From the NCBI GenBank assembly GCA_004376055.2, contig CP049016.1:3162001-3226000 (forward strand): a DNA stretch of 64,000 nucleotides. Reading direction: 5' to 3'. Numbering within the stretch: the stretch's first letter is position 1; every line of letters starts with the position of its first letter. The position numbers were made by a program, and so were the translations under genes. The notes under the pieces are model-generated. The model searched no databases. It was not told where the DNA came from and saw nothing but the letters and a program-made list of their open reading frames with translations. Positions 1-63,279 of the stretch are shown here, piece by piece. This DNA is from Nitrospirales bacterium LBB_01 (GTDB lineage Bacteria > Nitrospirota > Thermodesulfovibrionia > Thermodesulfovibrionales > Magnetobacteriaceae).

Positions 1-791
1 CAGAGGTTGGAATCAAAATGCCTGATATAAAAAAAACCATGCTTGAGGCCCGTCTGCAGAAAAGACTAAAAGCGCTTGGGTTTGACACTTTTAACCAGTA
101 CATAGAGTATGTGTTTAGCCCTAAGGGGCGCGATGCTGAAATTATAAATTTTATAGACGTTGTCACAACAAATAAGACCGATTTTTTCAGAGAGCCCAAC
201 CACTTTGAATACCTGACCTCAACCGCCCTGCCGACTCTCATCAGAACCCATGGTGCAGGCGTAAGGCGAAAACTTATGGTCTGGAGCGCTGGGTGCTCTA
301 CCGGAGAAGAGCCCTACACGCTCACTATGGTTCTTGATAACTATGGGCTTAAGCAATACAACGGGGTGTTCAGTTTTACGTTGATAGCGACGGATATTTC
401 CTCACGAGTGCTTGAAAAAGCCCAAAGCGGCGTGTATGAAGAGGAAAAAGTAGCTCCCATACCTATGGAGATGAAAAAGCGGTATCTGTTACGAAGCAAA
501 GACAGGAGCAAAAAAATTGTGAAAATAGTGCCTGAGCTAAGGTCTATGATAAAGTTTCGCCGTCTTAATTTCATGGAAGGGGATTTTGGATTCAGAGAAG
601 AGATGGATATAATTTTTTGCAGAAATGTGGTTATATATTTTGATAAACAGACGCAGGAAAAACTTCTGAACAAATTCAGCCGCTATCTGATTCCCGGAGG
701 ATATTTGTTTATGGGGCATTCGGAAACTATTGCCGGATTAAAAGTGCCGTTTGTGCAGGTAGCGCCTACCGTTTACAGGGTTGCTCATTGA
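1..791 (+). CDS. cheR: CheR, chemotaxis protein methyltransferase (5' end cut by window)
   Basis: SAM-dependent methyltransferase that methylates glutamates on chemoreceptors. The frame is open from the first base: the codons before the first ATG (position 18) read EVGIK and join the family motif in which a GI segment precedes KKTMLEARL, so the true start lies outside the window. The N-terminal helical domain is followed by the SAM-binding motif WSAGCSTGEEPYTL and the late motif FCRNVVIYFD. The stop codon overlaps the TTG start of cheD, so the two are translationally coupled; with cheB they form an adaptation operon in which CheR and CheB act in opposite directions. Confidence 0.95.
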   Translation, partial: EVGIKMPDIKKTMLEARLQKRLKALGFDTFNQYIEYVFSPKGRDAEIINFIDVVTTNKTDFFREPNHFEYLTSTALPTLIRTHGAGVRRKLMVWSAGCSTGEEPYTLTMVLDNYGLKQYNGVFSFTLIATDISSRVLEKAQSGVYEEEKVAPIPMEMKKRYLLRSKDRSKKIVKIVPELRSMIKFRRLNFMEGDFGFREEMDIIFCRNVVIYFDKQTQEKLLNKFSRYLIPGGYLFMGHSETIAGLKVPFVQVAPTVYRVAH

Positions 792-49489: not shown

Positions 49490-50557
49490 GTGAATAAGAT
49501 AACTGTTCTAAAAGCTATAGATTCTGTGTTAGGCAGAGGGCTTGCCGTTGTGCTGCCAGCATTACACAAAAAGCCTCTGAAATCTGCCTACTCTCCTCTC
49601 TCAGCGCTCATTATAAGACCCGGAGGCATTGGGGATGCCGTCTTATTGATTCCTGCAATTGAGGAGCTAAAAAAGGAATATCCCTATCTTAAGATAGATA
49701 TTCTTTGCGAAAAACGAAACGCCGGTATTTTCACTATCTATACCGGTATGAACAAAGTCTATCTCTACGACAAACCTGCTGATATCATCAGTTGTTTTAA
49801 AAACACTTATGATATAATTATAGATACCGAACAGTGGCACAGATTGCCGGCACTCTTGACTTATTTTATGAATGCCGGTTTGAAAGTTGGATTTAACACT
49901 AATGAAAGAGGAAAATTTTTTACACACAAAGCCTCCTACAGTCATGATAGTTACGAGGCTGAGAGTTTTCTCTCGCTTATTAGCAAAATTACAGGTAAAA
50001 GTTATACATTTCCAGCCGATGTGCCGTTTCTTGACTCTCCTGTGTACCCTGAGAGCCACTTGTATGAGAAATATGTGTGCATATTTCCAGGCGCTACCGT
50101 TAAACAACGGCGCTGGGGCGGTCATAATTATGCCGAGACTGCAAAAGCAGTTATCAATATGGGCTTTAATGTAGTAATTCTTGGAGGGAAATCCGACACA
50201 GAGGATGCCGATATAATTATGCAGCACTGCCCTAAGGCAATTAACTACTGCGCTAAAACAACGCTTACAGAGACCGCCATGTTGTTAAAAGGCTCCGTGG
50301 GGTTAATCACTGCAGACTCTGGACTTTTGCACCTTGCCGTTGCCCTCGGTGTTCCTACAGTATCGCTGTTTGGCTCAGGAATTGAGAAGAAATGGGGACC
50401 AAAGGGTAAAATTCACGCTATTTTAAACAGACATCTCCCCTGCAGCCCATGCACAAGGTTTGGCTACACCCCAGCGTGTAAATTAAACCAAAAGTGCATC
50501 ATAGAAATAACCGTCAATGAAGTGTTAGACCAGTTGGTTTTCAAAAAAGTGATATGA
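49490..50557 (+). CDS. Family 9 glycosyltransferase (heptosyltransferase-like)
   Basis: A 355-residue ADP-heptose type transferase. LIIRPGGIGDAVLLIPAIEEL forms the N-terminal donor loop, VCIFPGATVKQRRWGG and LITADSGLLHLAVALGVPTVSLFG the C-terminal nucleotide-binding half. The final ACKLNQKCIIEITV with two Cys is usual for the family. The start is GTG. It probably adds a heptose or related sugar to lipopolysaccharide core. It is separate from the main polysaccharide operon. Confidence 0.88.
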   Translation: MNKITVLKAIDSVLGRGLAVVLPALHKKPLKSAYSPLSALIIRPGGIGDAVLLIPAIEELKKEYPYLKIDILCEKRNAGIFTIYTGMNKVYLYDKPADIISCFKNTYDIIIDTEQWHRLPALLTYFMNAGLKVGFNTNERGKFFTHKASYSHDSYEAESFLSLISKITGKSYTFPADVPFLDSPVYPESHLYEKYVCIFPGATVKQRRWGGHNYAETAKAVINMGFNVVILGGKSDTEDADIIMQHCPKAINYCAKTTLTETAMLLKGSVGLITADSGLLHLAVALGVPTVSLFGSGIEKKWGPKGKIHAILNRHLPCSPCTRFGYTPACKLNQKCIIEITVNEVLDQLVFKKVI

Positions 50558-50563
50558 AAAGAA

Positions 50564-50597
50564 ATAGGGGGGGAGGAGAAAAATCCTCCCCCCCTAT
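50564..50597. terminator. Bidirectional terminator hairpin
   Basis: A perfect 14-bp stem (ATAGGGGGGGAGGA paired with TCCTCCCCCCCTAT) with a six-base loop. It lies exactly between the convergent heptosyltransferase and cytochrome genes. No long T tract follows, but its strength and position make it a probable shared terminator. Confidence 0.65.
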
Positions 50598-50601
50598 GTG
50601 T

Positions 50602-52401
50602 CTATTGTTTTAATTTAGCGTCTATCTTGTTTTTGTGTTCACTGTCGTTGTCTTTAGCCCACTTGTAGCTTTTCTCAAAATCTATCCAGAAGGAGGCTTT
50701 AGAGCCGGCATGACAGCCTGTGCACTCTCCTACCCGTCGTATCTTTTTGATTTCTTGTTCATTAAATGGTCTTTGACCCGGCTGACTAAATGAAAGTAAT
50801 TGATTACCCTTGTCATCTACGTACTTATCGGGGTCAACCATGAGAGCCTTTCCAGACTTAAACGTCTCAGGTGTTAAGCCGCCCTGACCAAGTGCCCACT
50901 TGTCGTTATGACACTCATCACAGCCTCGCATTGCGCTTCGCTGTGTAGTGTGTGCATTAGCAACCGAGACACGGTTAAAAGCCGTAAAGCCATCGGGCGT
51001 TTTACCGTTGCTTTCTTGATTAACACTATATTCTTTGACAGTTTTTCCATCTTTGTCAATTTCAGTTATATGCACGGCACAGCCAAGTTGATTTGGAGCA
51101 ACTTTTCCCGATGAATGAATAGAAAGCGGTGGCTTTTTCCACTTTGCTGCAAAATCATCTGCTACAATACTCCAGGCTCCAGGGCTTTCCTTTCCGGTTA
51201 TCGTATCTTTTCCTGTCTTTGTCCTGTCAACTTTAAAGTGACAGGCATAGCAGTTGACATTCTTAGTGCTGTGGCACGCTGCACACTCCATTCCTTTAAT
51301 GTGCTCTGTGATAAGCATCGCTGTAGGAAGTTTCTCCTTTGCCTTAAGTGAATCAAGAGCAGGCACGATGTGCTCTTTTCCGGTAACACGTGAGGTCAGG
51401 ATGAGCTTATCGCCGTCTTGCTTAATGTTGGAAAGCTTCATACCCTCAGAGTCAGTCATCGTGGGCTTGGAGTTAGGCTCACCATGACAGCTGCTGCATT
51501 TTATCTTTACGGCCTGAGATTTTCTAACATAAATATTGCCGTCGCCATGAATCTCCTTTGTGCTGTGGCAATCAATACAGTGCATCCCTCGCTGGTAATG
51601 GATGTCTGCCTCATGTCCTGCCAGTTCTCCCGTGTAGCTTACGCCTATTCTGTTACCACCCTTATGACACCGTGCGCACTGATCGGCAGGGATTTTTGTT
51701 GTGATTTTATGAACAGCTGAGCGCCACTCTTTTCCCTTCATTGCGGGATCGCCCCCAGCATACTTCCCATCAGCACTGGTAAGCATGTGGCAAGCTGCAC
51801 AACCTGAACCTCGGTAGCCTTTGGCTGCCTTTGCGCCATCTGTCCTGAGGTGACACTTTATGCAGAACTTTCTCAACATCTCAACAGCAATATGCGATGA
51901 TGAATCAGGAATCGGCTGGAGACTCTCTACAGCCCCCTTTTCCTTTTCAACAACACCGCCGGCAAGTATAGGATGATCGCTCATTGCAAAATGTGAGTCT
52001 TTATCCTTAGTGTAACCACGGGCGTATAATGTGTCAGCTATTTCTCCTTGTGAGTTTGCCATCAGAGACTTTTCTACCTTGCTTACTTGATCAGGGTGGC
52101 ACTGTCCGCATGTTTTGTTCACTACAGAAAGATCAGAGGGGTTTGGGTACATTGCCTTATGAGCGCTCTCTTTGTCCTTTGCTGAGGCGTTACCACTATG
52201 GCAGACAGTGCACTCATATCCTGGTTTCATTTTATGTTCTTTAATAAAATGCTGTGTCATTTTGGGATTGATATCCTCAATGCCATTGTGACAACTCAAA
52301 CACCCTTTTGATGGGGCACCTGCAGCGAATACCTTTCCGTATGATAACCCCAGGCTAAGGCATATCACTGCAATTACGAATACTACCTTTGTTTTTTCCA
52401 T
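50602..52401 (-). CDS. Periplasmic dodecahaem cytochrome c
   Basis: A 599-residue exported protein with a signal peptide (cleavage near residue 27, after FAAG) and 12 CxxCH haem motifs: CLSCH, CTVCH, CGQCH, CIKCH, CAACH, CARCH, CIDCH, CSSCH, CAACH, CYACH, CDECH and CTGCH. No membrane segment follows, so it is soluble in the periplasm. Such proteins pass electrons between menaquinone-linked enzymes and terminal acceptors, including metals; no catalytic lysine or enzyme motif lets me name the acceptor. It stands alone, with a possible -10 TATACT at 52444-52439. Confidence 0.88.
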   Translation of the reverse strand: MEKTKVVFVIAVICLSLGLSYGKVFAAGAPSKGCLSCHNGIEDINPKMTQHFIKEHKMKPGYECTVCHSGNASAKDKESAHKAMYPNPSDLSVVNKTCGQCHPDQVSKVEKSLMANSQGEIADTLYARGYTKDKDSHFAMSDHPILAGGVVEKEKGAVESLQPIPDSSSHIAVEMLRKFCIKCHLRTDGAKAAKGYRGSGCAACHMLTSADGKYAGGDPAMKGKEWRSAVHKITTKIPADQCARCHKGGNRIGVSYTGELAGHEADIHYQRGMHCIDCHSTKEIHGDGNIYVRKSQAVKIKCSSCHGEPNSKPTMTDSEGMKLSNIKQDGDKLILTSRVTGKEHIVPALDSLKAKEKLPTAMLITEHIKGMECAACHSTKNVNCYACHFKVDRTKTGKDTITGKESPGAWSIVADDFAAKWKKPPLSIHSSGKVAPNQLGCAVHITEIDKDGKTVKEYSVNQESNGKTPDGFTAFNRVSVANAHTTQRSAMRGCDECHNDKWALGQGGLTPETFKSGKALMVDPDKYVDDKGNQLLSFSQPGQRPFNEQEIKKIRRVGECTGCHAGSKASFWIDFEKSYKWAKDNDSEHKNKIDAKLKQ

Positions 52402-52476
52402 CTGTTACCCCCAATTTAATTAGAATCTTATTTGGGGTAGTATATCTGAAGTGGTGGTATTTTGTAAAAAATCTTA

Positions 52477-54258
52477 GTTAGGTTGCTACCGTGAACGGAA
52501 ATATTATATACCTCAGCGGGGTTTGGGGTCCCTTCCTCAAGGTTGTGGGTTGCTACCAGGCACGGATATGTTATACTTCCCATCTTTAGGACATCCAGCC
52601 AAAATAGTTGTGGGTTGCTACCAGGCACGGATATGTTATACTAACAGGAGGTTCTGATGTACAAGACAATAGTTGTGGGTTGCTACCAGGTACTGATATG
52701 TTATACTTCCAACAATTGAAAAAGCCCATGAAATGCGGTTGTGGGTTGCTACCAGGTACTGATATGTTATACTTATCAACCGCCGAATAGCAGCATCTAT
52801 TAGTTGTGGGTTGCTACCAGGTACTGATATGTTATACTTGAAAACGCATACTGGTCAACTCCATGAAGGTTGTGGGTTGCTACCAGGTACTGATATGTTA
52901 TACTTTAAGCCGTAACTCCTCATAATTTGTAACGTTGTGGGTTGCTACCAGGTACTGATATGTTATACTTAAAATGGATAAAATACGTCCGAGGGCAGGT
53001 TGTGGGTTGCTACCAGGTACTGATATGTTATACTAGGGACAATAGGTGAAGATAAGTATATCGGGTGTTGTGGGTTGCTACCAGGTACTGATATGTTATA
53101 CTACGAATGCTAAACACATACTTGCGTTCGTAGTTGTGGGTTGCTACCAGGTACTGATATGTTATACTTGACCCGTTTAGCGCCTACCGAGTCGGGCGGT
53201 TGTGGGTTGCTACCAGGTACTGATATGTTATACTAGAGGACGAAGGGACGGAACGTAGTACCGAGTTGTGGGTTGCTACCAGGTACTGATATGTTATACT
53301 ATTAATGTCGGCACATACGTGTCGTCGCTGTTGTGGGTTGCTACCAGGTACTGATATGTTATACTAAAATGAAATAGAGTATCTTAGTTCTAAAAGTTGT
53401 GGGTTGCTACCAGGTACTGATATGTTATACTGCTTGGGTTTCGGAGACTGCATAAGTTTTGGTTGTGGGTTGCTACCAGGTACTGATATGTTATACTAAA
53501 CACATCTTGTCGCTGCTACTGCGATAGGTTGTGGGTTGCTACCAGGTACTGATATGTTATACTAAAGCTCTACTTCCATAAAAGAGACTAAGAGTTGTGG
53601 GTTGCTACCAGGTACTGATATGTTATACTATTCCTTGATAGTAATTCTGAATATCTTTGTTGTGGGTTGCTACCAGGTACTGATATGTTATACTTTATCG
53701 TTTTGTTATGTGCATTTATCCTTTGTTGTGGGTTGCTACCAGGTACTGATATGTTATACTTTCAACCTGTAGTGCATGTATGACAGACGTGTTGTGGGTT
53801 GCTACCAGGTACTGATATGTTATACTATCACATATTACACACCAAATATTCGACGAGTTGTGGGTTGCTACCAGGTACTGATATGTTATACTAAAGTCCT
53901 TTCTGTTTGAAAATCAGATAGGTTGTGGGTTGCTACCAGGTACTGATATGTTATACTATCTGCCGCCTGCAATAAAAAAGGTTTCGTGTTGTGGGTTGCT
54001 ACCAGGTACTGATATGTTATACTATTAATGTCGGCACATACGTGTCGTCGCTAGTTGTGGGTTGCTACCAGGTACTGATATGTTATACTCCCGCTCTCTT
54101 TTTCCCCTCCTTCCGGTCGGTTGTGGGTTGCTACCAGGTACTGATATGTTATACTGGACACGTTGGTTTATTGCTTATTAGGTCGGTTGTGGGTTGCTAC
54201 CAGGTACTGATATGTTATACTGGTTGTGGGTTGCTACCAGGTACTGATATGTTATACT
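52477..54258 (+). CRISPR. Type II-C CRISPR array: 27 full repeats, 25 spacers and one decayed repeat
   Basis: The 36-base repeat starts GTTGTGGGTTGCTACC and ends GATATGTTATACT. Full copies start at 52542, 52607 and so on to 54223. The spacers are 29-32 bases, mostly 30. The first two repeats (52542, 52607) carry two changes (CCAGGCACGG), and a further decayed copy lies at 52477-52511, so the old end is left and the leader side is right, next to cas2. The same spacer is present at 53301 and 54024. The last interval (54222) is a single base. Pairing with the tracrRNA fixes the transcript direction as plus. Confidence 0.97.
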
Positions 54259-54607
54259 ACCAACTACACAAGTAGTTGAAATGAAAGGGTAAATGAGTAA
54301 AAAGTGGTGAGAAAAAGTGACTGTGGAGGTATTAGTAAGTAGGGGAAATAGAGTTTTACAGAACGTAGAAAATCTTATAATCTTTTCATCTTTTTTGCGG
54401 GCGGAGCTCGAAGTGAAACTTTTTAAGCGGCGGTACGCCGGTTGAAAAATTCTCTACCTACAAGGACAACGAAAAACATCTGACTAAACCACCCAATCTT
54501 TAACCCTAAAACCGAGGGGTTAAGGGGAAATCATTTCCCCTTATGGGAGAGGGTCTAAGGGAAAGGGCAAAGCCCTTTCCCTTACTTACTATAAAACACA
54601 CATACCA
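54259..54607. promoter_or_regulatory. CRISPR leader and cas2 downstream region
   Basis: A 349-base gap without a gene between the newest repeat and cas2. It holds AT-rich sequence directly after the array, then three successive hairpins: TAACCC/GGGTTA (54501-54522), AAGGGGAAA/TTTCCCCTT (54522-54542) and the perfect 13-bp stem TAAGGGAAAGGGC with its complement (54556-54584). The last hairpin could end the cas transcript coming from the right, although no T tract follows. Leader function is inferred from the position at the non-degenerate end. Confidence 0.6.
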
Positions 54608-54940
54608 TCAAAATAATTCAAGTTGATGCGGAGCGTTTGGGGGAGGTTTTTCTTTTCTCCCTACAAAGAATTGAATGTCTCCAAACTGCTTGTCGGTAAT
54701 ACTGATGACATTAACAAAACCCTTTTCCGGCAGCGCACCTTTGATACGCCGAGTGTGAGCCTCTGCATTTTCTCTGCTTGCGCAGTGACGATAGTACACT
54801 GAGTACTGCATCATGTTAAAGCCGTCGTCAAGAAGAAATTTTCTGAATTTTGTGTAAGCCTTTCGCTCTTTCTTCGTTTCAGTCGGTAAATCAAAAAGTA
54901 CTATTAACCACATAATCCTATATTTATTTAACTCGCACAT
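54608..54940 (-). CDS. cas2: CRISPR-associated endonuclease Cas2
   Basis: A 110-residue structural partner of Cas1 in spacer integration. The start MCELNKYRIMWLIVLFDLPT is like other type II Cas2 proteins, with the Asp of the ferredoxin-like fold in VLFDLP. It continues with TKFRKFLLDDGFNMMQYSVYYRHC and ends GRKEKPPPNAPHQLELF. It is the last cas gene, 12 bases after cas1. Confidence 0.95.
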   Translation of the reverse strand: MCELNKYRIMWLIVLFDLPTETKKERKAYTKFRKFLLDDGFNMMQYSVYYRHCASRENAEAHTRRIKGALPEKGFVNVISITDKQFGDIQFFVGRKEKPPPNAPHQLELF

Positions 54941-54952
54941 GTTTAACCGAAG

Positions 54953-55879
54953 TCACAGACCCGGGTACTCAATGTCTTTCTGTTCTTTAGCGAAGCACCT
55001 TTGCAGTGATGCAGTGGTTCTGTTAAGCGCTGTCATAAGTGGAAAAGTGCTGCCGTCTAAAACCACATCTGCCGCAAGTAAACCCAGCAGCTCTTTTTTT
55101 ATCTCTTTGGTCAGGCTCATTTTATCCAATGGCAGCTCGTCCATGTCTTGTATTTCAAGTTCTCCTATATCGGCGCCAGTGTACAACTCATACACTTTCC
55201 TGTCGATAAACACACGGTATGGTTCCATGACGTCATCCGCTAAGCAGAATGCGTTATACTTATTGCGGTGATGGATACCCAATGTGGGAAGCAGCCCGGA
55301 GCTGACCAGAGAGCGGGCTGTTGCTGCCCTGAGAATTATGTAGCCGTAGTTTAAGAGATTGTTTGGGTAAAGACCAAACCGGTCTCGCTTAAACTTTTTA
55401 CCTAACAGATTTTTCCAGTAATAACGTGCAGCATGAGCTTCAAGGTTAGCGGAATCGCCGGATTTTACATTTCTTGCCATCTCAGTAAGAGGCGCTGTTG
55501 GCACGCCTTTGCTCTCCAATAACTTTGCCTGATTAGTTATCTTCTTACAGACTATTTGCTGCCAAAGTTGTTTTTTAAGTGGAACAGTTGCCTCAATTTG
55601 CGATTTGAAACGCTCGGTCTGCACGGAATTAGTTTCAAGCGGAAGAAAAAGTCCGGCGGGGTAGTGGCTTTTCCCGATGAGGACTATTGCCGAATTGTTT
55701 TCAAGCAAAGACATAAAACACGAATGAGTGTAACTGACATTAGGGTGTTCCACAATCAAAAGACCAATGTCTTCGATGGGAATTCTACCGACTGTCTCAT
55801 CATTTTGAGTAATGACAAGCTGTTTGTGGTCAATATTGAGCCTTGACGGATTATCTATGCTGACAGTTCGTTTAATCAT
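54953..55879 (-). CDS. cas1: CRISPR-associated integrase Cas1 (type II)
   Basis: Catalyses insertion of new spacers together with Cas2. The 308 residues are typical for type II. The N-terminal beta-domain begins MIKRTVSIDNPSRLNIDHKQLVI. In the C-terminal helical half the active-site His and Asp are in LPTLGIHHRNKYNAFCLADDVMEPYRVFID. Its start overlaps the end of cas9 by eight bases, so the two are coupled. Confidence 0.96.
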   Translation of the reverse strand: MIKRTVSIDNPSRLNIDHKQLVITQNDETVGRIPIEDIGLLIVEHPNVSYTHSCFMSLLENNSAIVLIGKSHYPAGLFLPLETNSVQTERFKSQIEATVPLKKQLWQQIVCKKITNQAKLLESKGVPTAPLTEMARNVKSGDSANLEAHAARYYWKNLLGKKFKRDRFGLYPNNLLNYGYIILRAATARSLVSSGLLPTLGIHHRNKYNAFCLADDVMEPYRVFIDRKVYELYTGADIGELEIQDMDELPLDKMSLTKEIKKELLGLLAADVVLDGSTFPLMTALNRTTASLQRCFAKEQKDIEYPGL

Positions 55880-58800
55880 TGGCTTTTGTTATCCTCCCGA
55901 GTCTGTCAACTACGACTTTTATACCTTTCAGGGTATTGGGATATGGGCAAGGCGTCTTTTCGTCAAGAGTGGCCTCAAAGTGGCGTCTTATTGTTATTTG
56001 CGTGCTTGAAGAGATTTTCTGAACCCTGTAAAGTTTTTTGGAGAGTTCTTTATAATTTTGTGGATCAAGAGAGAATTCGTTTTCATCAACGTCAAGAAGA
56101 AACATTTCGTTGATAGAGAGCGAATAGAGAAATTCCTTGTTTTCACCGAGGTCTTTTCTTATAACCTTCTCCCCATGTCTGAAGCGTTTAACGGCATCAA
56201 AAAAAGTGCAAACCTCGCCGCCTTGCTTGACGTTGCCTTTATTGTCTTTATAGCGGTAAATGACGATGTGGTGGTTAGCTCCTGGTGCAACAAAGGTTTT
56301 ATTGTTAGTACGGCCGGGCAGCTCTATCATATTGCCGGATGGTATGTAGATTATCACCTTTTTAATGGGGATTTTTCTACCGTCTTTCGTGGGCAGGAAA
56401 GCCTCAATGGCAACTTTGGTATCTTCGGCTGATTTATCCCTTTGTGTCGTATATGCGTTAGCCTTTTTTTCTGCTTCTCGTCTTTCTGCCTCTTCTATAG
56501 CGTTTTTAACAATTTCTCTTATTTTTGGGTCAGCTATTTCGTCAATTTTACTTAATTTAATGTCCTCAATATTTTTCCTGACACGGAATATTGGCATTTT
56601 CTTATCGTTTTTTCTGCCTGTATAGCCGTAGAAGGTTTCCTCGTGGAGCTGTCCTCTCAGGCGCTTATTGACTCTGATTGAGACTGTAAGTTTGTTGATA
56701 GCCTCAGAAACATCGTTACGGAAATATTCCCATGGAGCCGGGAATCTATCTAAAGTTGGCTTCCTGTCATATTTACTGTATCGCGAGAGTTTTTGAATAG
56801 TTTTAACCTCGGTCAGAGCAATAACGATAGCGTCAATTGCATGTTGGCGGTGGTCGTTACGGTTTTTCTCAGAAGACTGACTTAAGACGCTGTTAAGACC
56901 CCAGAGGTGACGTAACTTAGCTGTTGCCTGTCCTTTTGAAGGTTGAACCTTATACTTGCTTAAGAGCGACACAGCCTCTCTGCTCATGTAGGCGGTATCA
57001 TTTAGCTGCCTTGAAGCGAAGTCATCGTCAATTTCTTTTAACATGAATTTTCGCTGCTTGGCTTTTGGCAGAACTTTTATCCTTTGTAAAATTTCGTCGT
57101 ACTGCGGCGAGCCGTTATAGCATTCAAAGGGCGTTCTATTGCTTTTTCGCCGGTTTTCATCCACGTGGCAAAGGGTCAGATTCATAAAGGAGTCGTCCAT
57201 GGAGCGAGAGTATGGGATTATATGCTCAATTTCAAAGGCAGATGAAAAGAGGTCAGTTATTGAAATTCTAAACCCAGTGTAAGGACAGTGCTCCTTGCAT
57301 TCCTGCCAGAGTTTGTACTTTACGATAGCCTCATTGTTGGGAGTTTTGCCTAAAGCAGTAAGAGCGTCTGCAGCTTTTTCATTAATTCTTTTGTTTTCAT
57401 AATTTTTCTTTCTGATGTCCTCCCTTTGTTTTTTTGAGGCTTTCAGTTCCCTTGTCATTTCAATGTTAATAAGCTCAGGAGCGCCGTAAGTCTTTTCTAA
57501 TCGGTTTACGAGTGCCAGTAATTCGTACAGAGTTTTTGAGACGATAGGGTTTCGTATGTTTTTAATAATCTCGATTTCGCTTCTTTCTCCACGAGAACTT
57601 TCATAACCCGCTTTAACTTTTGCATCGTGAAGATTTAACCCATCAAGTAAAAATGGCAATATTTTATTGATAGCCTTTAGCGAGAAATTAGCGTAACCTG
57701 CTTCAAGCGCAATTTTAACAACGGCTTTAACCGCCTTCTCATCCAGTCCCCACTTTTCGCTTGCATAGGTTCTAAGCCAGCTGTTATCGTGTGCAAAGTT
57801 TATGACCTGTAGGATTTTTTCCTTCTCTACGTCTGAGTATGTATCCCACGTCTTTTTAAAGATTTTCCTAAAGCTGTGGCTGGTCTTGTCTCCGATAAGG
57901 AAATCATCGTCGTTTTGTTCAATTTTAAAATCAGCCTCCTCTAATTTTAATTGCTTTCTGATGTCTTTAAATGAGCATTTTTCTTTAGATTTGAGCAGTG
58001 CGATGAGTTTATCTCTGCGGTCTTTGGTCTCAGGGCTAAACTCCTCATCAGGAGTCCTATAGAATTTTATTTCATCATGGTTTTCGTTTTTATAGTTAAG
58101 GCGGTTAACCTGTTCCAGAATGCGAAACAGTTGAAACTCAAAAGCGCTCTTTGGGCAGCGTTTTTTATTAGGTTCAAGTGTACAGTTACCGATTAAACTT
58201 GCAACGGATTTCAACGGACGTTGGAAGAATATGTCATGGTCTCTGAGGTCATCTCTCATTTCTTGTGTAAGCTCAGGGTAGTATGAGCTTTGCTTTTCCC
58301 AGAGGAGTTCAAACTCTTGCTCGTACAATTTCCGCTCTGTGTGCCGGCATCTGACCTTTTCGCCCTTTACCTGTAATGAATATAGATACTCGCCGAGGGT
58401 TCGGCAGTTATTAGCTTTTATCTCCTCAGGGAGTCTCCGAAGTTCTTCTTTAAACGCAGTGTCTTTTTTAACATCCTCGCCTTGAGACTTTCTGCTGCTC
58501 TTAAAACCTCTTCTTTTACTTAGATGGAGTAACACCCTGCCAAACTCTAATTTAGAAAGTTGAGAGTCAAGCCCATGTGTTCTGAGTTCATACGGGTTCA
58601 TAGCGTAAAACATGAGAGCGCTGTCATCGGAAAACATTTGGTACTCTTTTAATTTCACAGTAAGGTTGTCTCTTCTTTGGCATTTCCTTTCATACTGCCG
58701 TCTAAGCTGTCTCTTTAGACGTCGTGTAGCATTTTTTGATATTTCACTGCCAGAAGTAGTTCTGTCCACGCCCTCCTGAAAAATACGAACGCCTGCATCA

Positions 58801-58880
58801 ATAATTTTCTTAGAATTGTTGTCAATGCAAGCCCAGCCAATAGAATTTGTACCCAAATCAAGCCCAAGTTTGTAAGTCAT
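55872..58880 (-). CDS. cas9: Cas9 endonuclease, compact type II-C
   Basis: A 1002-residue RNA-guided nuclease, shorter than Neisseria Cas9 and close to Campylobacter Cas9. RuvC-I is GLDLGTNSIGWAC (D8), the Arg-rich bridge helix is RRLKRQLRRQYERKCQRRDN, RuvC-II has INIEMTREL (E474), HNH has FEIEHIIPYSRSMDDSFMN (H553) and RuvC-III has HRQHAIDAIVIALTE (H680, D683). All catalytic residues are intact. It is the first gene of a cas9-cas1-cas2 operon without csn2 or cas4, hence II-C. Its promoter probably lies in the tracrRNA anti-repeat region immediately upstream. Confidence 0.97.
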   Translation of the reverse strand: MTYKLGLDLGTNSIGWACIDNNSKKIIDAGVRIFQEGVDRTTSGSEISKNATRRLKRQLRRQYERKCQRRDNLTVKLKEYQMFSDDSALMFYAMNPYELRTHGLDSQLSKLEFGRVLLHLSKRRGFKSSRKSQGEDVKKDTAFKEELRRLPEEIKANNCRTLGEYLYSLQVKGEKVRCRHTERKLYEQEFELLWEKQSSYYPELTQEMRDDLRDHDIFFQRPLKSVASLIGNCTLEPNKKRCPKSAFEFQLFRILEQVNRLNYKNENHDEIKFYRTPDEEFSPETKDRRDKLIALLKSKEKCSFKDIRKQLKLEEADFKIEQNDDDFLIGDKTSHSFRKIFKKTWDTYSDVEKEKILQVINFAHDNSWLRTYASEKWGLDEKAVKAVVKIALEAGYANFSLKAINKILPFLLDGLNLHDAKVKAGYESSRGERSEIEIIKNIRNPIVSKTLYELLALVNRLEKTYGAPELINIEMTRELKASKKQREDIRKKNYENKRINEKAADALTALGKTPNNEAIVKYKLWQECKEHCPYTGFRISITDLFSSAFEIEHIIPYSRSMDDSFMNLTLCHVDENRRKSNRTPFECYNGSPQYDEILQRIKVLPKAKQRKFMLKEIDDDFASRQLNDTAYMSREAVSLLSKYKVQPSKGQATAKLRHLWGLNSVLSQSSEKNRNDHRQHAIDAIVIALTEVKTIQKLSRYSKYDRKPTLDRFPAPWEYFRNDVSEAINKLTVSIRVNKRLRGQLHEETFYGYTGRKNDKKMPIFRVRKNIEDIKLSKIDEIADPKIREIVKNAIEEAERREAEKKANAYTTQRDKSAEDTKVAIEAFLPTKDGRKIPIKKVIIYIPSGNMIELPGRTNNKTFVAPGANHHIVIYRYKDNKGNVKQGGEVCTFFDAVKRFRHGEKVIRKDLGENKEFLYSLSINEMFLLDVDENEFSLDPQNYKELSKKLYRVQKISSSTQITIRRHFEATLDEKTPCPYPNTLKGIKVVVDRLGRITKAND

Positions 58881-58904
58881 CTCATTCCCCCTAATATTTT
58901 TTAC

Positions 58905-58933
58905 TTGACATATTTATAGAAATATGTTAAAGT
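58905..58933 (+). promoter_or_regulatory. Promoter of the tracrRNA
   Basis: TTGACA (58905-58910) is followed after 17 bp by TAAAGT (58928-58933). The predicted start near 58940 coincides with the first base of the anti-repeat. The promoter lies in the short gap between cas9 and the tracrRNA, which point away from each other. Confidence 0.7.
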
Positions 58934-58939
58934 ATAGAT

Positions 58940-59046
58940 AGTATAACATATCAGTGCCTGGAGTTTCCCATAATAAAGGGTTAATCTCCCAGGACACCCC
59001 AGCTTATGTTGGGGACCCGAGCTCCTGTTCGCAGGGGCTCTTTTTA
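58940..59046 (+). ncRNA. tracrRNA of the type II-C system
   Basis: The first 22 bases (58940-58961) pair with the 3' two-thirds of the CRISPR repeat: 21 Watson-Crick pairs and one G-U. After a five-base bulge, CCCATAAT (58968-58975) pairs with the first eight repeat bases (GTTGTGGG), with two G-U pairs. Downstream come a GGG/CCC stem (58978-58990), a CCCCA/TGGGG hairpin, and a nine-bp stem with a TTCG loop followed by TTTTT (terminator). This is the normal layout of a tracrRNA tail. It lies on the strand opposite cas9, 60 bases from the cas9 start. Confidence 0.9.
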
Positions 59047-59160
59047 TTATTGGCTTTTACCGGCTGATAAAAACAACAACCCATGATTTCTCACGTAGGG
59101 CGTGCAGTAATCTAAACCTTATACCAAGTAGCTCCCAAAAAGATAATATAATGGTGGGGA

Positions 59161-59280
59161 AAAAGGACTGGATTCCCGCTCGTAGGCGGGAATGACAAAG
59201 GAGTGCGATTTTACAGGGAACCTTTAGGGGAGGTCATTCCTTTTCCTTTCTCGTCTTTCCTGCGAAGGCAGGAATCCAGT
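59161..59280. repeat. Dispersed repeat, copy B
   Basis: A second copy of the compound palindrome at 23641. The left arm (59161-59200) is identical to copy A over about 40 bases; the right arm (59251-59279) repeats the TGCGAAGGCAGGAATCC part; the middle again contains GTCATTCCTTT. The spacer between the arms differs. The remaining parts of the gap 59047-59160 and 59281-59361 show nothing else recognisable. Confidence 0.8.
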
Positions 59281-59361
59281 TTTTTATTTATATCTTTGAG
59301 CGCAACTCAGTATTAAAGGTAAAACTCATTGACAGTTGAATTATAGGAAAAACTTACTACT

Positions 59362-60111
59362 TTACGGTTTATTATTTTCAAATATTTTGTAATTTGCGAT
59401 TCTTTTCTTTTGAAAAAAGTACTGCAACGATGTTCCCATAACACCGATTCCATAGGTGACGCTTCGGGAGAAATTTATAGAGGATGCCTCTTCAAAATAC
59501 TTGGTCGGACAGCTAATCTCTCCGATTTTAAACCCAAAGTGCAGCGCCTGCACTATCATCTGATTATCAAAGATGAAATCGTCCGAATTATTTTCAAACG
59601 GTATGGTTTCAAGCACAGCTCTACTGAACGCTCTAAACCCTGTGTGGTACTCTGAAAGTTTAATGCCAAGAAAGATATTTTCAAAGAATGTCAAAAACCT
59701 GTTGGAGACATATTTGTATGAGGGCATTCCGCCCTTTAGCGCATCGCCGCCCAAAATTCTTGAGCCAAGCGCAACATCGTAATGACCGGAGATAACCATT
59801 GCGGCAAGCGCCGTCACAAGTTTTGGCGAATACTGATAGTCCGGGTGCAGCATCACGATTACATCAGCCCCGCCAACAAGTGCATTTTTATAGCACGTCT
59901 TTTGATTGCCGCCATAACCGAGATTTTTTTCGTGAACGATTACCTTAAGACCAAGTTTTCTTGCCACCTCAGGAGTGCTGTCTTTTGAGGCATCATCAAC
60001 AACTATTATCTCATCCACATACTCGTGAGGTATCTCATCATAAGTCTGCTGTAGAGTTTTCTCAGCATTATACGCCGGCATAACAACAGCTATTTTTTTT
60101 CCTAAAAGCAT
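59362..60111 (-). CDS. Family 2 glycosyltransferase (dolichol-phosphate mannosyltransferase-like)
   Basis: A 249-residue GT2 enzyme resembling polyprenol-phosphate sugar synthases. VVMPAYNAEKTLQQTYDEIP, IIVVDDASKDSTPEVAR, GYGGNQKTCYKNAL and MLHPDYQYSPKLV are typical, with ALGSRILGGDALKGGMP later. No C-terminal membrane span is seen, so it is a soluble or peripheral type. It would make a lipid-linked sugar donor for GT-C transferases such as the two in this window. It is monocistronic. Confidence 0.88.
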   Translation of the reverse strand: MLLGKKIAVVMPAYNAEKTLQQTYDEIPHEYVDEIIVVDDASKDSTPEVARKLGLKVIVHEKNLGYGGNQKTCYKNALVGGADVIVMLHPDYQYSPKLVTALAAMVISGHYDVALGSRILGGDALKGGMPSYKYVSNRFLTFFENIFLGIKLSEYHTGFRAFSRAVLETIPFENNSDDFIFDNQMIVQALHFGFKIGEISCPTKYFEEASSINFSRSVTYGIGVMGTSLQYFFQKKRIANYKIFENNKP

Positions 60112-60181
60112 ACGGTTATCCTTTTATAACATAACAATATCCGCATTTACAAGACTCCTTATAACATCCTAAACTTTTCTC

Positions 60182-60210
60182 TTGACAAAACACATTATTT
60201 ACATTACCAT
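60182..60210 (+). promoter_or_regulatory. Sigma70-type promoter of the sensory module
   Basis: TTGACA (60182-60187) and TACCAT (60205-60210) are 17 bp apart. The expected transcript starts near 60217, giving an untranslated leader of about 110 bases. This leader can form a seven-bp stem CACTATG/CATAGTG and a shorter CCGT/ACGG stem; no known riboswitch motif is visible. Confidence 0.55.
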
Positions 60211-60327
60211 ACATCATAAGTACGTGTGCCGTTAGGGTTTTCCTTTGACGGGCTACTGGCTGGAATAGGCTTGGGACACTATGAAGCGGCAATTGGTCAG
60301 AAACTGCATAGTGCGGCCTTATAAAGT

Positions 60328-61260
60328 ATGGAGAGAGATGATTTGAAACGCTTGGGATGTTTTATTGTTGTACCGCTATCGTTGATGTTGCTTTTTGCTT
60401 TTGCCAAACCTTTGAGTGCTGAGGACGTAGTGGTGATTGAGGGAGCCGCAGTGAAACCTTTTGAGGAGGCACTAAAGGGATTTGAGCATAATTGCGGATG
60501 CAATGTAAAAGGAGTGCTGGCTCTGGATATGAAAGATGCTGATCCTATGGCTTTTATAGAAAAGCTCAAGCCTGATAAGGTCGTGGCAATTGGTGAGGAG
60601 GCACTTAAGAGCGTTAAAAATATAACAAATAAGCAGGTTATTTATATGATGGTCTTAAATCCAACGCTATATACAGCCGGAAAAAGTAATTTTACAGGAA
60701 TTAGCATGATTATTCCTCCGGCCAAACAGTTAAGGGCGATAAGGAGCGTGTTTCCTAACGTTGACCGACTTGGGGTACTGTATAATCCTGAAAACTCTGA
60801 AAATATAGTCCGCACTGCCCGTAGCGTTGCCGCAAGTATGGGTTTTGAAATCATAACACATGAAGTACACTCCCCAAAAGATATACCTGGCGCTCTCAAC
60901 GCTATAAAACACAAGATAGAAGCCCTATGGCTTATACCGGATGTGACCGTAGCACCGCCTGAGATGATAGAGCTCTATGAGCTTTTTTCTGTTCACTACA
61001 ATAAGCCGCTGTTTACTTTTGCAGATAAACACTTAGAGCGCGGCGCCTCGTTGTCTGTCTCGATATCACCGGTTGATATTGGAAAACAGGCGGGTGAAAT
61101 TTTAAAAAACAGCTATGCCAATAAAAGTAATCTTCACGATGTGACTGTCGCAAAGGTATCTCTAAATCCAGTGGTGGCTACCAAGATGGTTTTGGTTATA
61201 AATGAGCCGTTTAGAAAAGAAAACACTGTTTTTATGGATATCTCACAGCTTAAACGTTAA
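60328..61260 (+). CDS. Periplasmic ABC-type substrate-binding protein (PF04392-like)
   Basis: A 310-residue exported protein with a signal peptide (LIVVPLS-like hydrophobic core near residues 8-27, cleavage near LSAED). The body resembles the PF04392 substrate-binding family (DRLGVLYNPENSENIVRTARSVAASMGFEIITHEV, then FTFADKHLERGASLSVSISPVDIGKQAGEIL), including the TrpX-type branch. No permease or ATPase follows; instead a histidine kinase gene starts 30 bases later. It therefore probably acts as a ligand sensor for the kinase. Confidence 0.8.
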   Translation: MERDDLKRLGCFIVVPLSLMLLFAFAKPLSAEDVVVIEGAAVKPFEEALKGFEHNCGCNVKGVLALDMKDADPMAFIEKLKPDKVVAIGEEALKSVKNITNKQVIYMMVLNPTLYTAGKSNFTGISMIIPPAKQLRAIRSVFPNVDRLGVLYNPENSENIVRTARSVAASMGFEIITHEVHSPKDIPGALNAIKHKIEALWLIPDVTVAPPEMIELYELFSVHYNKPLFTFADKHLERGASLSVSISPVDIGKQAGEILKNSYANKSNLHDVTVAKVSLNPVVATKMVLVINEPFRKENTVFMDISQLKR

Positions 61261-61290
61261 TCGGTTACTTCTGCTCAATTTTTTACTAAA

Positions 61291-63279
61291 ATGAATTTTC
61301 TTTTAAAAGAGGGCAGGGCTAAGAAATTCAGGGAGAGTTTCGCTGCTAAAGTCTATGCCGTTGTCACTGTTTTTATTATATTAGTATCGGTGGTTTTTGT
61401 CACCATAATAGTACGCGGACAGTACAAACAGCTAATGGAAAATAGTATAACAAAGGGGACTCTGCTTGCCAAATTGCTGGCTTATAACAGCCGGCTTGGA
61501 GTGTTTTCAGAAAGTGAAACTATCTTGACAGATGCCGTTGATGCTATAAAAAGGCAAAACGATGTGGTCTATGTATCAATTTATAATAGTGATGCTAAAC
61601 TTCTTACAAAGTACGTAAATGGTCAACTCTATAAAGACACTTCAGATGATCATAATGAAATTGATAAAATAATAGAACAACTTAAAAAAGAAAAAAGTCT
61701 CTTTTTCACCGAAGGCAAAAACGTATTATGCTTTTGGGCGCCTGTGCTATCCGATTATGCTGGGGATGACTATTTGCAGGTAGTTGCCGGTAAATCAAAA
61801 TTGCTTGGTTTTGTTGAAATCTGTCTGACTACGACAACTCTTAAAGCACAAATAATCGGTCTTTTTTTAAGAAGCATACTTATGAGTGTTTTTTTTCTCT
61901 TAATAGCCTTGTCAATTACATTTGTTATCCTTAGAAAAATTATACGACCGGTGATAGATCTAACAAGCTGCATGAGGGAGTTTGGTGAAACCGGCACCTT
62001 AACCGGAGAGCTCCCTATCACTGCCCAAGATGAAATTGGTCATTTATCAATGGCTTTTACTAAAATGATAGATGATCTTCATGCCAAAGAGAATGAAAAG
62101 CATGTAATGGAGGAACATCTGATAAACTCTCAAAAAATGGAGGCTATCGGCACTCTGGCTGGAGGTATCGCACATAATTTTAACAACGTGCTGACCGTGT
62201 TTGCATCAAAACTTGCCGTGGCTAAAAACCTCCTGCCTAAGACGCATGACGCATATGCAAGACTTATACAGGCAGAAGACACAATAGGCAAGGCAAAATA
62301 TTTGTCTAACCAGCTTTTTACTTTTGCCCGCGGCGGCTCTCCAATAAAAGAGGCAGCCTCAATAGGCTCTCTTATTGAAGAGACGGTGCCGCTTATCATG
62401 GCAGGCTCTCGGTTAAACTATGAACTGGAGATAGCAGAGGATTTGTGTTTAGCGATGATTGACAAGGACCAGATGCGGCAAGTAATCAATAATCTGCTCT
62501 CCAATTCTAAAGATGCAGTAAAAGACAGAGGATCCATTACGGTTAGAGCACGGAACGCTAAACTGACAGACCATATTGCAGTGCCTTCAAACGGGATGTA
62601 TATTAAGATTGATTTTATGGATACAGGCATTGGGATAATAGAGGACAATTTAAGCAAAATATTTACTCCATTTTTTACTACAAAACGCAATGGGCGCGGT
62701 CTTGGACTAACCATTGCACATTCCATAGTGAAAAAGCATGGCGGAGAGGTTATAATTACATCAGAGCATGGGAAGTGGACGCTCTGTGAGGTCTATGTAC
62801 CTGCCACCTGTGAGTTGGGTGCAACAGTGGCTATAGAATCAGCAAAAACCAGTGATTTCTCAATAAGTGAACCGGTTGAAGTATCCGCAGCAGAACAAAA
62901 AAGGATACTTCTGCTTGAAGATAATGATGAGATACGGACATGGGTGGGGCTTGTATTGCGTGACAGCGGCTACAGAGTGTCAATGGCAAGGGATGGTCTT
63001 GAGGCACTGTATCTGTATAATGAGGGCAAGCTACAGGGGCAGCCGTTTGATGTGGTGGTAGTGGATTTAGTGATAGAGGATGGTATGGGAGGCAAGGAGG
63101 CGATGGAGGAACTTCTGAAGGCTGATCCTGATGTTAAGGCGATAGTGGCAAGCGGTTATTCTGATGACCCTGTGATGGCTGAGTATAAAAGGTATGGCTT
63201 TAAAGCGTGTGTGTCAAAACCCTACGGTATGGATCAATTATTGGATGCGATTGAGTTTGCGTCGGATACGGGCAGATGA
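61291..63279 (+). CDS. Membrane sensor histidine kinase with C-terminal receiver domain
   Basis: A 662-residue hybrid kinase. TM1 (about 20-43) and TM2 (about 188-212) flank an extracytoplasmic sensor domain; HAMP follows (about 213-266). The HisKA region has the phosphorylated His in LAGGIAHNFNNVLTVF (about H294), followed by a catalytic domain (VINNLLSNSKDAV, FMDTGIGIIEDNLSKIFTPFFTTKRNGRGLGLTIAH). A receiver ends the chain (about 535-660; VVVVDLVIEDGMGG has the Asp). The adjacent binding protein and NtrC-type regulator suggest one signalling operon. Confidence 0.9.
   Translation: MNFLLKEGRAKKFRESFAAKVYAVVTVFIILVSVVFVTIIVRGQYKQLMENSITKGTLLAKLLAYNSRLGVFSESETILTDAVDAIKRQNDVVYVSIYNSDAKLLTKYVNGQLYKDTSDDHNEIDKIIEQLKKEKSLFFTEGKNVLCFWAPVLSDYAGDDYLQVVAGKSKLLGFVEICLTTTTLKAQIIGLFLRSILMSVFFLLIALSITFVILRKIIRPVIDLTSCMREFGETGTLTGELPITAQDEIGHLSMAFTKMIDDLHAKENEKHVMEEHLINSQKMEAIGTLAGGIAHNFNNVLTVFASKLAVAKNLLPKTHDAYARLIQAEDTIGKAKYLSNQLFTFARGGSPIKEAASIGSLIEETVPLIMAGSRLNYELEIAEDLCLAMIDKDQMRQVINNLLSNSKDAVKDRGSITVRARNAKLTDHIAVPSNGMYIKIDFMDTGIGIIEDNLSKIFTPFFTTKRNGRGLGLTIAHSIVKKHGGEVIITSEHGKWTLCEVYVPATCELGATVAIESAKTSDFSISEPVEVSAAEQKRILLLEDNDEIRTWVGLVLRDSGYRVSMARDGLEALYLYNEGKLQGQPFDVVVVDLVIEDGMGGKEAMEELLKADPDVKAIVASGYSDDPVMAEYKRYGFKACVSKPYGMDQLLDAIEFASDTGR

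Follow-up and report, generated by a model that had tools for sequence, protein, structure and literature searches.

Each 36-base repeat of the CRISPR array at 52542-54258 (+ strand) in the window, by which we mean the whole stretch of 64,000 nucleotides analyzed here, very probably carries its own promoter, judging from its bases, so that each spacer would be separately transcribable. The array belongs to a complete type II-C CRISPR-Cas9 locus (a tracrRNA, cas9, cas1 and cas2 as the only cas genes, and the array convergent with them). This locus is a new, well-formed example of the documented II-C in-repeat-promoter design, not a new kind of system. We assign a probability of about 0.86 to the reading as a whole, in which transcription would initiate from the repeats, RNase III would trim the transcripts, and spacers would be acquired with the polarity described below.

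The array has 27 repeats of 36 nt, 25 of them identical (GTTGTGGGTTGCTACCAGGTACTGATATGTTATACT), and its spacers are 29-30 nt long with a single one of 32. The parts of the array and its flanks are as follows.

52475-52510, + strand: degenerate oldest ("extra") repeat, 13 of 36 bases changed
52542-52577, + strand: repeat 1, old variant (GGCACGG), with a -35-like element at 52550-52555 and TG plus -10 element at 52569-52577
52607-52642, + strand: repeat 2, old variant, GGCACGG form
52672-54258, + strand: 25 identical repeats with spacers of 29-32 nt; TGTTATACT closes every repeat
54222, + strand: "spacer" of a single base separating the two newest repeats, from the array sequence
54259-54345, + strand: conserved leader, adjoining the array on its 3' (cas2) side; right-hand limit approximate

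Within the repeat, TTGCTA occupies bases 9-14 and TATACT bases 31-36, with 16 bp between them; TATACT ends at the last repeat base, and TG (bases 28-29) stands one base upstream of it. The earlier note had described these elements in every repeat, and both the elements and their coordinates proved exact in all 27. A sigma-70 (extended) -10 element thus lies at the 3' end of each repeat, including repeats 1 and 2, in which GGTACTG is replaced by GGCACGG (two substitutions) and both hexamers are untouched.

We scored the repeat with a two-box sigma-70 matrix trained on 159 regions upstream of long open frames of this genome, drawn from 20 sampled genome stretches and the window. These regions have a normal sigma-70 signature: TTGACA is 3.7-fold enriched, TATAAT 2.1-fold and TATACT 2.3-fold (19 vs 8.4 expected), and TTGACA-16..18-TAnnnT occurs 16 times vs 0.4 expected. 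The repeat scores 13.9 bits, which exceeds the best sites of 89% of the 159 regions and is reached by 0.05% of repeat shuffles and 0.05% of random 36-mers from the window; its reverse strand scores -0.3 bits. The old variant in repeat 1 scores the same as the consensus repeat, and the degenerate repeat at 52475-52510 scores 6.1 bits. A 7-kb scan returned 43 promoter-like sites against 13.4 ± 3.7 expected; 27 of them are the repeats, which count as one observation because they are copies of one sequence. The scan 5' of the array found no + strand promoter outside the repeats. The claim of the earlier note that each repeat has its own promoter is therefore very probable on these sequence data, given the score from the host-trained matrix, its strand specificity, the conservation among 39 II-C repeats and the position of the leader at the wrong end, the last two of which are presented below. 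A start at spacer base 6-8, also proposed in the earlier note, would leave a guide of 22-25 nt given the measured spacer lengths. Across 775 related spacers there was no start-site or discriminator bias at spacer bases 1-8; this weighs against the promoters, and spacer-position composition was dropped as evidence of start-site selection.

To place the repeat among its relatives, related loci from many phyla were collected by Cas9-guided retrieval, and 39 distinct 36-nt repeats were compared. TAnAnT ends 38 of the 39; every repeat (39/39) has A at positions 32 and 34 and T at position 36, and position 31 is T in 38/39. TTG stands at positions 9-11 in 28 repeats and at 8-10 in six, which gives a spacing of 16 or 17 bp in 34/39. 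Mid-repeat positions are close to random. The promoter score is higher on the forward than on the reverse strand in 37 of the 39 (sign test, 3e-9). Within this organism's family, the 13 bases at the 3' end of the repeat (GATATGTTATACT) are constant down to 49% Cas9 identity, and again the middle varies. The repeat fits a recognizable II-C family, GYTGTGG-TTG-n19/20-TAnAnT, so the description of it as unrelated-looking in the earlier note is unsupported; of the "convergent or conserved" design suggested there, conservation is borne out by the counts for TAnAnT (38/39) and TTG (34/39), and convergence is not. The commonest hexamer among the related repeats, TACACT (17/39), is a less than ideal -10 element and counts against the promoter reading. 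Several relatives score poorly with the matrix, which is trained on this host and need not apply to them. No significant compensation between TTG and the extended TG was found (P = 0.21).

The same conserved bases could be kept for other purposes, TAnAnT and TTG serving integration by Cas1-Cas2 and recognition by Cas9 and tracrRNA, with an incidental likeness to a promoter, one upstream promoter for the array, and RNase III cutting both crRNA ends. Cas1-Cas2 would be expected to recognize the repeat ends, in which positions 3-5 are the mirror image of 32-34, so part of the conservation of the ends may be integrase-driven. TTG falls at the bulge of the tracrRNA duplex, where a Cas9 contact could conserve it, the anti-repeat spans the whole repeat, and the II-C system of R. 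anatipestifer has been reported to be without in-repeat promoters. However, T31 and T36, which a -10 element requires at its -12 and -7 positions, face G6 and G1 as G-T and so depart from Watson-Crick mirror symmetry. We read this departure as promoter selection overriding symmetry, with integrase selection as an alternative. Furthermore, the repeat end is a good promoter by a matrix learned from the host's own genes, and the upstream promoter that this explanation calls for did not appear in the scan 5' of the array. We consider it improbable.

The tracrRNA, by its full-repeat co-fold, promoter and terminator, is oriented in accord with crRNAs made from the + strand. The genes next to the array are listed here.

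54608-54940, - strand: cas2 (PF09827, TIGR01573, Cas2_II)
54953-55879, - strand: cas1 of type II/NMENI (TIGR03639, 272 bits, cut-off 120; Cas1_II)
55872-58880, - strand: cas9, 1002 aa (TIGR01865, 702 bits, cut-off 100; HNH_4, RuvC_III)
58905-58933, + strand: tracrRNA promoter TTGACA-17-TAAAGT with TG, from the promoter scan (15.2 bits, host matrix)
58940-59048, + strand: predicted tracrRNA of about 109 nt, with anti-repeat at 58940-58974 and intrinsic terminator at 59019-59048

Cas9 has HNH and RuvC domains and Cas1 is of the type II/NMENI family (TIGR01865, PF13395, PF18541 and TIGR03639 all above cut-off). The three cas genes are intact open frames, neither csn2 nor cas4 is present among the genes of the locus or those flanking it, and the locus is flanked by a glycosyltransferase gene and a multihaem cytochrome gene. 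The tracrRNA gene is divergent from cas9, and its transcript is predicted to start near 58940, at the beginning of the anti-repeat; a search of 50000-62000 against Rfam families gave no match. The anti-repeat pairs with the full repeat length (about -50 kcal/mol by co-folding, vs -12.5 kcal/mol for the degenerate repeat), and crude anti-repeat searches suggest pairing up to the repeat 3' end in most related loci.

Two details of the tracrRNA gene are of separate interest. Its anti-repeat (58940-58961) still matches the GGCAC form, found in the two oldest repeats of the window and in relatives, and not the current GGTAC, indicating that the array repeat has changed and that the tracrRNA now pairs with it by G-U. 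The tracrRNA promoter (ATATGTTAAAGT, 58917-58934) resembles the repeat 3' end (ATATGTTATACT), and the tracrRNA gene may have arisen from two repeats, one direct and one inverted.

The leader is shared with two relatives of the same genus and one of the same family (L018, L134 and L135), in each of which it directly follows the last repeat, whereas the opposite flank is not conserved between the window and these relatives and holds mutated repeats. Because the leader lies 3' of the array with respect to crRNA transcription, it cannot supply a sense promoter. A conserved leader adjoining the newest repeat might instead suggest minus-strand transcription of the array, starting in the leader next to cas2, in the style of type II-A. 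The scan detected no minus-strand promoter within the leader, the tracrRNA gene is on the + strand and its RNA folds with + strand repeats at -84 kcal/mol vs -46 for the minus-strand alternative, and its promoter and anti-repeat have the same layout in four relatives (L018, L134, L135 and L136). We therefore rejected minus-strand transcription, which is exceedingly improbable given the tracrRNA structure and the promoter scan. The geometry is that of II-C systems: the array is convergent with the cas genes, the leader and the newest repeat are distal with respect to transcription, and the oldest repeat is mutated. The layout agrees with the one published for II-C systems, in which spacers are acquired at the last repeat and the first repeat is mutated (Feussner et al.).

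A palindrome, CAACTAC-ACAA-GTAGTTG (54261-54278, hairpin of -8.2 kcal/mol), opens the leader and is conserved in the same three relatives; it may be a signal for integration or form a hairpin in the transcript that leaves the array. A palindromic REP-like element of about 116 bp (54475-54590) sits between the leader and cas2, and the genome contains about 20 places related to it. In L018, a relative of the same genus, the whole interval from leader to cas2 is only about 140 bp.

With promoters in the repeats, RNA polymerase with the housekeeping sigma factor would bind each repeat, start about 7 bases into the following spacer and run towards the leader and cas2. The primary transcript would comprise a 22-25 nt guide and then the next repeat, which would pair over its full length with the tracrRNA; RNase III would trim within this duplex to give the crRNA 3' end, and the 5' end would need no processing. 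New spacers would enter at the opposite end, at the leader after the last repeat, and as each acquisition duplicates a repeat it would bring its own promoter. The TTG-16/17-TAnAnT layout suggests that this would be so for every new spacer, regardless of its position in the array.

The earlier note had held that RNase III is not needed, here or in the II-C arrays of Neisseria and Campylobacter. For this locus that view is unsupported, as the anti-repeat spans the whole repeat and the genome encodes RNase III: the full-repeat tracrRNA duplex is a likely RNase III substrate, and the crRNA 3' ends would probably be made by RNase III on this long duplex. The N. meningitidis II-C system resembles the locus in having a promoter inside each repeat and differs from it in Cas9 and repeat sequence; its repeats are reportedly 36 nt long, as here. 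RNase III is reported dispensable there by papers citing Zhang et al. (2013), so the claim stands as reported for Neisseria, but it fails for Campylobacter jejuni, in which RNase III makes the crRNA 3' ends and longer transcripts accumulate without it (Dugar et al. 2013, PMC3656092). C. jejuni transcripts have triphosphate starts at spacer base 5 (same study). Like the repeat of the window, that of C. jejuni ends in a -10-like element (GGTAAAAT) and is accompanied by a tracrRNA; unlike it, the window repeat has TATACT with TG, plus TTG 16 bp upstream.

In-repeat promoters were demonstrated in C. jejuni and N. meningitidis, and recent papers present them as general, the usual state of II-C arrays. 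Clostridium (Ruminiclostridium) cellulolyticum H10 likewise has an array opposite to its cas genes and repeats whose last nine bases resemble an extended -10 element, and its 23-26 nt guides, seen in E. coli, are close to the 22-25 nt predicted for the window; its array was expressed experimentally (PMC7038990), whereas the present locus is known from sequence alone. The Flavobacterium columnare array is also transcribed towards a leader at the repeat 3' end, but the published -10-like sequence is missing from its repeats, for which a Bacteroidota-type TTG has been proposed (PMC8092290). Five flavobacterial II-C loci compared here (L033, L035, L040, L043 and L060) differ from the window in the orientation of cas1-cas2, the array lying between cas9 and an inverted cas2-cas1, and their repeats end in GATATT, not TAnAnT, in keeping with the distinct consensus of Bacteroidota promoters.

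The locus probably adds to the documented cases of in-repeat promoters a lineage for which the literature found gives no transcript data, and is a clean example in that promoter, tracrRNA and leader geometry are all concordant. A modest extra is that TTG at the -35 distance is kept across the branch, where the literature found describes only the TTG proposed for Flavobacterium; this conservation is inseparable here from a Cas9 or tracrRNA constraint. The usual description of II-C repeats is of an extended -10 alone. That the repeats of this Cas9 branch would, across phyla, carry a full two-part promoter beyond it (TTG, 16-17 bp, TAnAnT) is a tentative proposal to which we give slightly less than an even chance; if true, a 36-base repeat is selected simultaneously as promoter, tracrRNA partner and integration site.

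The promoters might also have functioned formerly in a locus that is now a silent relic. Searches for protospacers and a PAM in phages and plasmids gave nothing convincing (best E 2-6), the one spacer tried against viral contigs (the duplicated spacer) had no exact match, and a single base separates the two newest repeats. All of this would suit a relic, but the cas genes are intact, the array has 25 identical repeats, and the sequence of one target occurs in two spacers that differ in length and neighbors, so that we regard present silence as very unlikely. A search of viral contigs for a related cas1 found none.

Some features of the spacers are worth recording. The two newest repeats (54186-54258), with only one G between them, appear to record an acquisition next to the leader that failed or collapsed. 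The first spacer base is A or T in 22 of 25 array spacers (core A+T 58%, P = 0.002), a bias absent from related arrays. An identical spacer sequence is found at 53301-53329 (29 nt) and 54024-54053 (30 nt), and the different lengths and neighbors suggest two independent acquisitions of one target. The relative L018 also has two identical spacers, which are adjacent.
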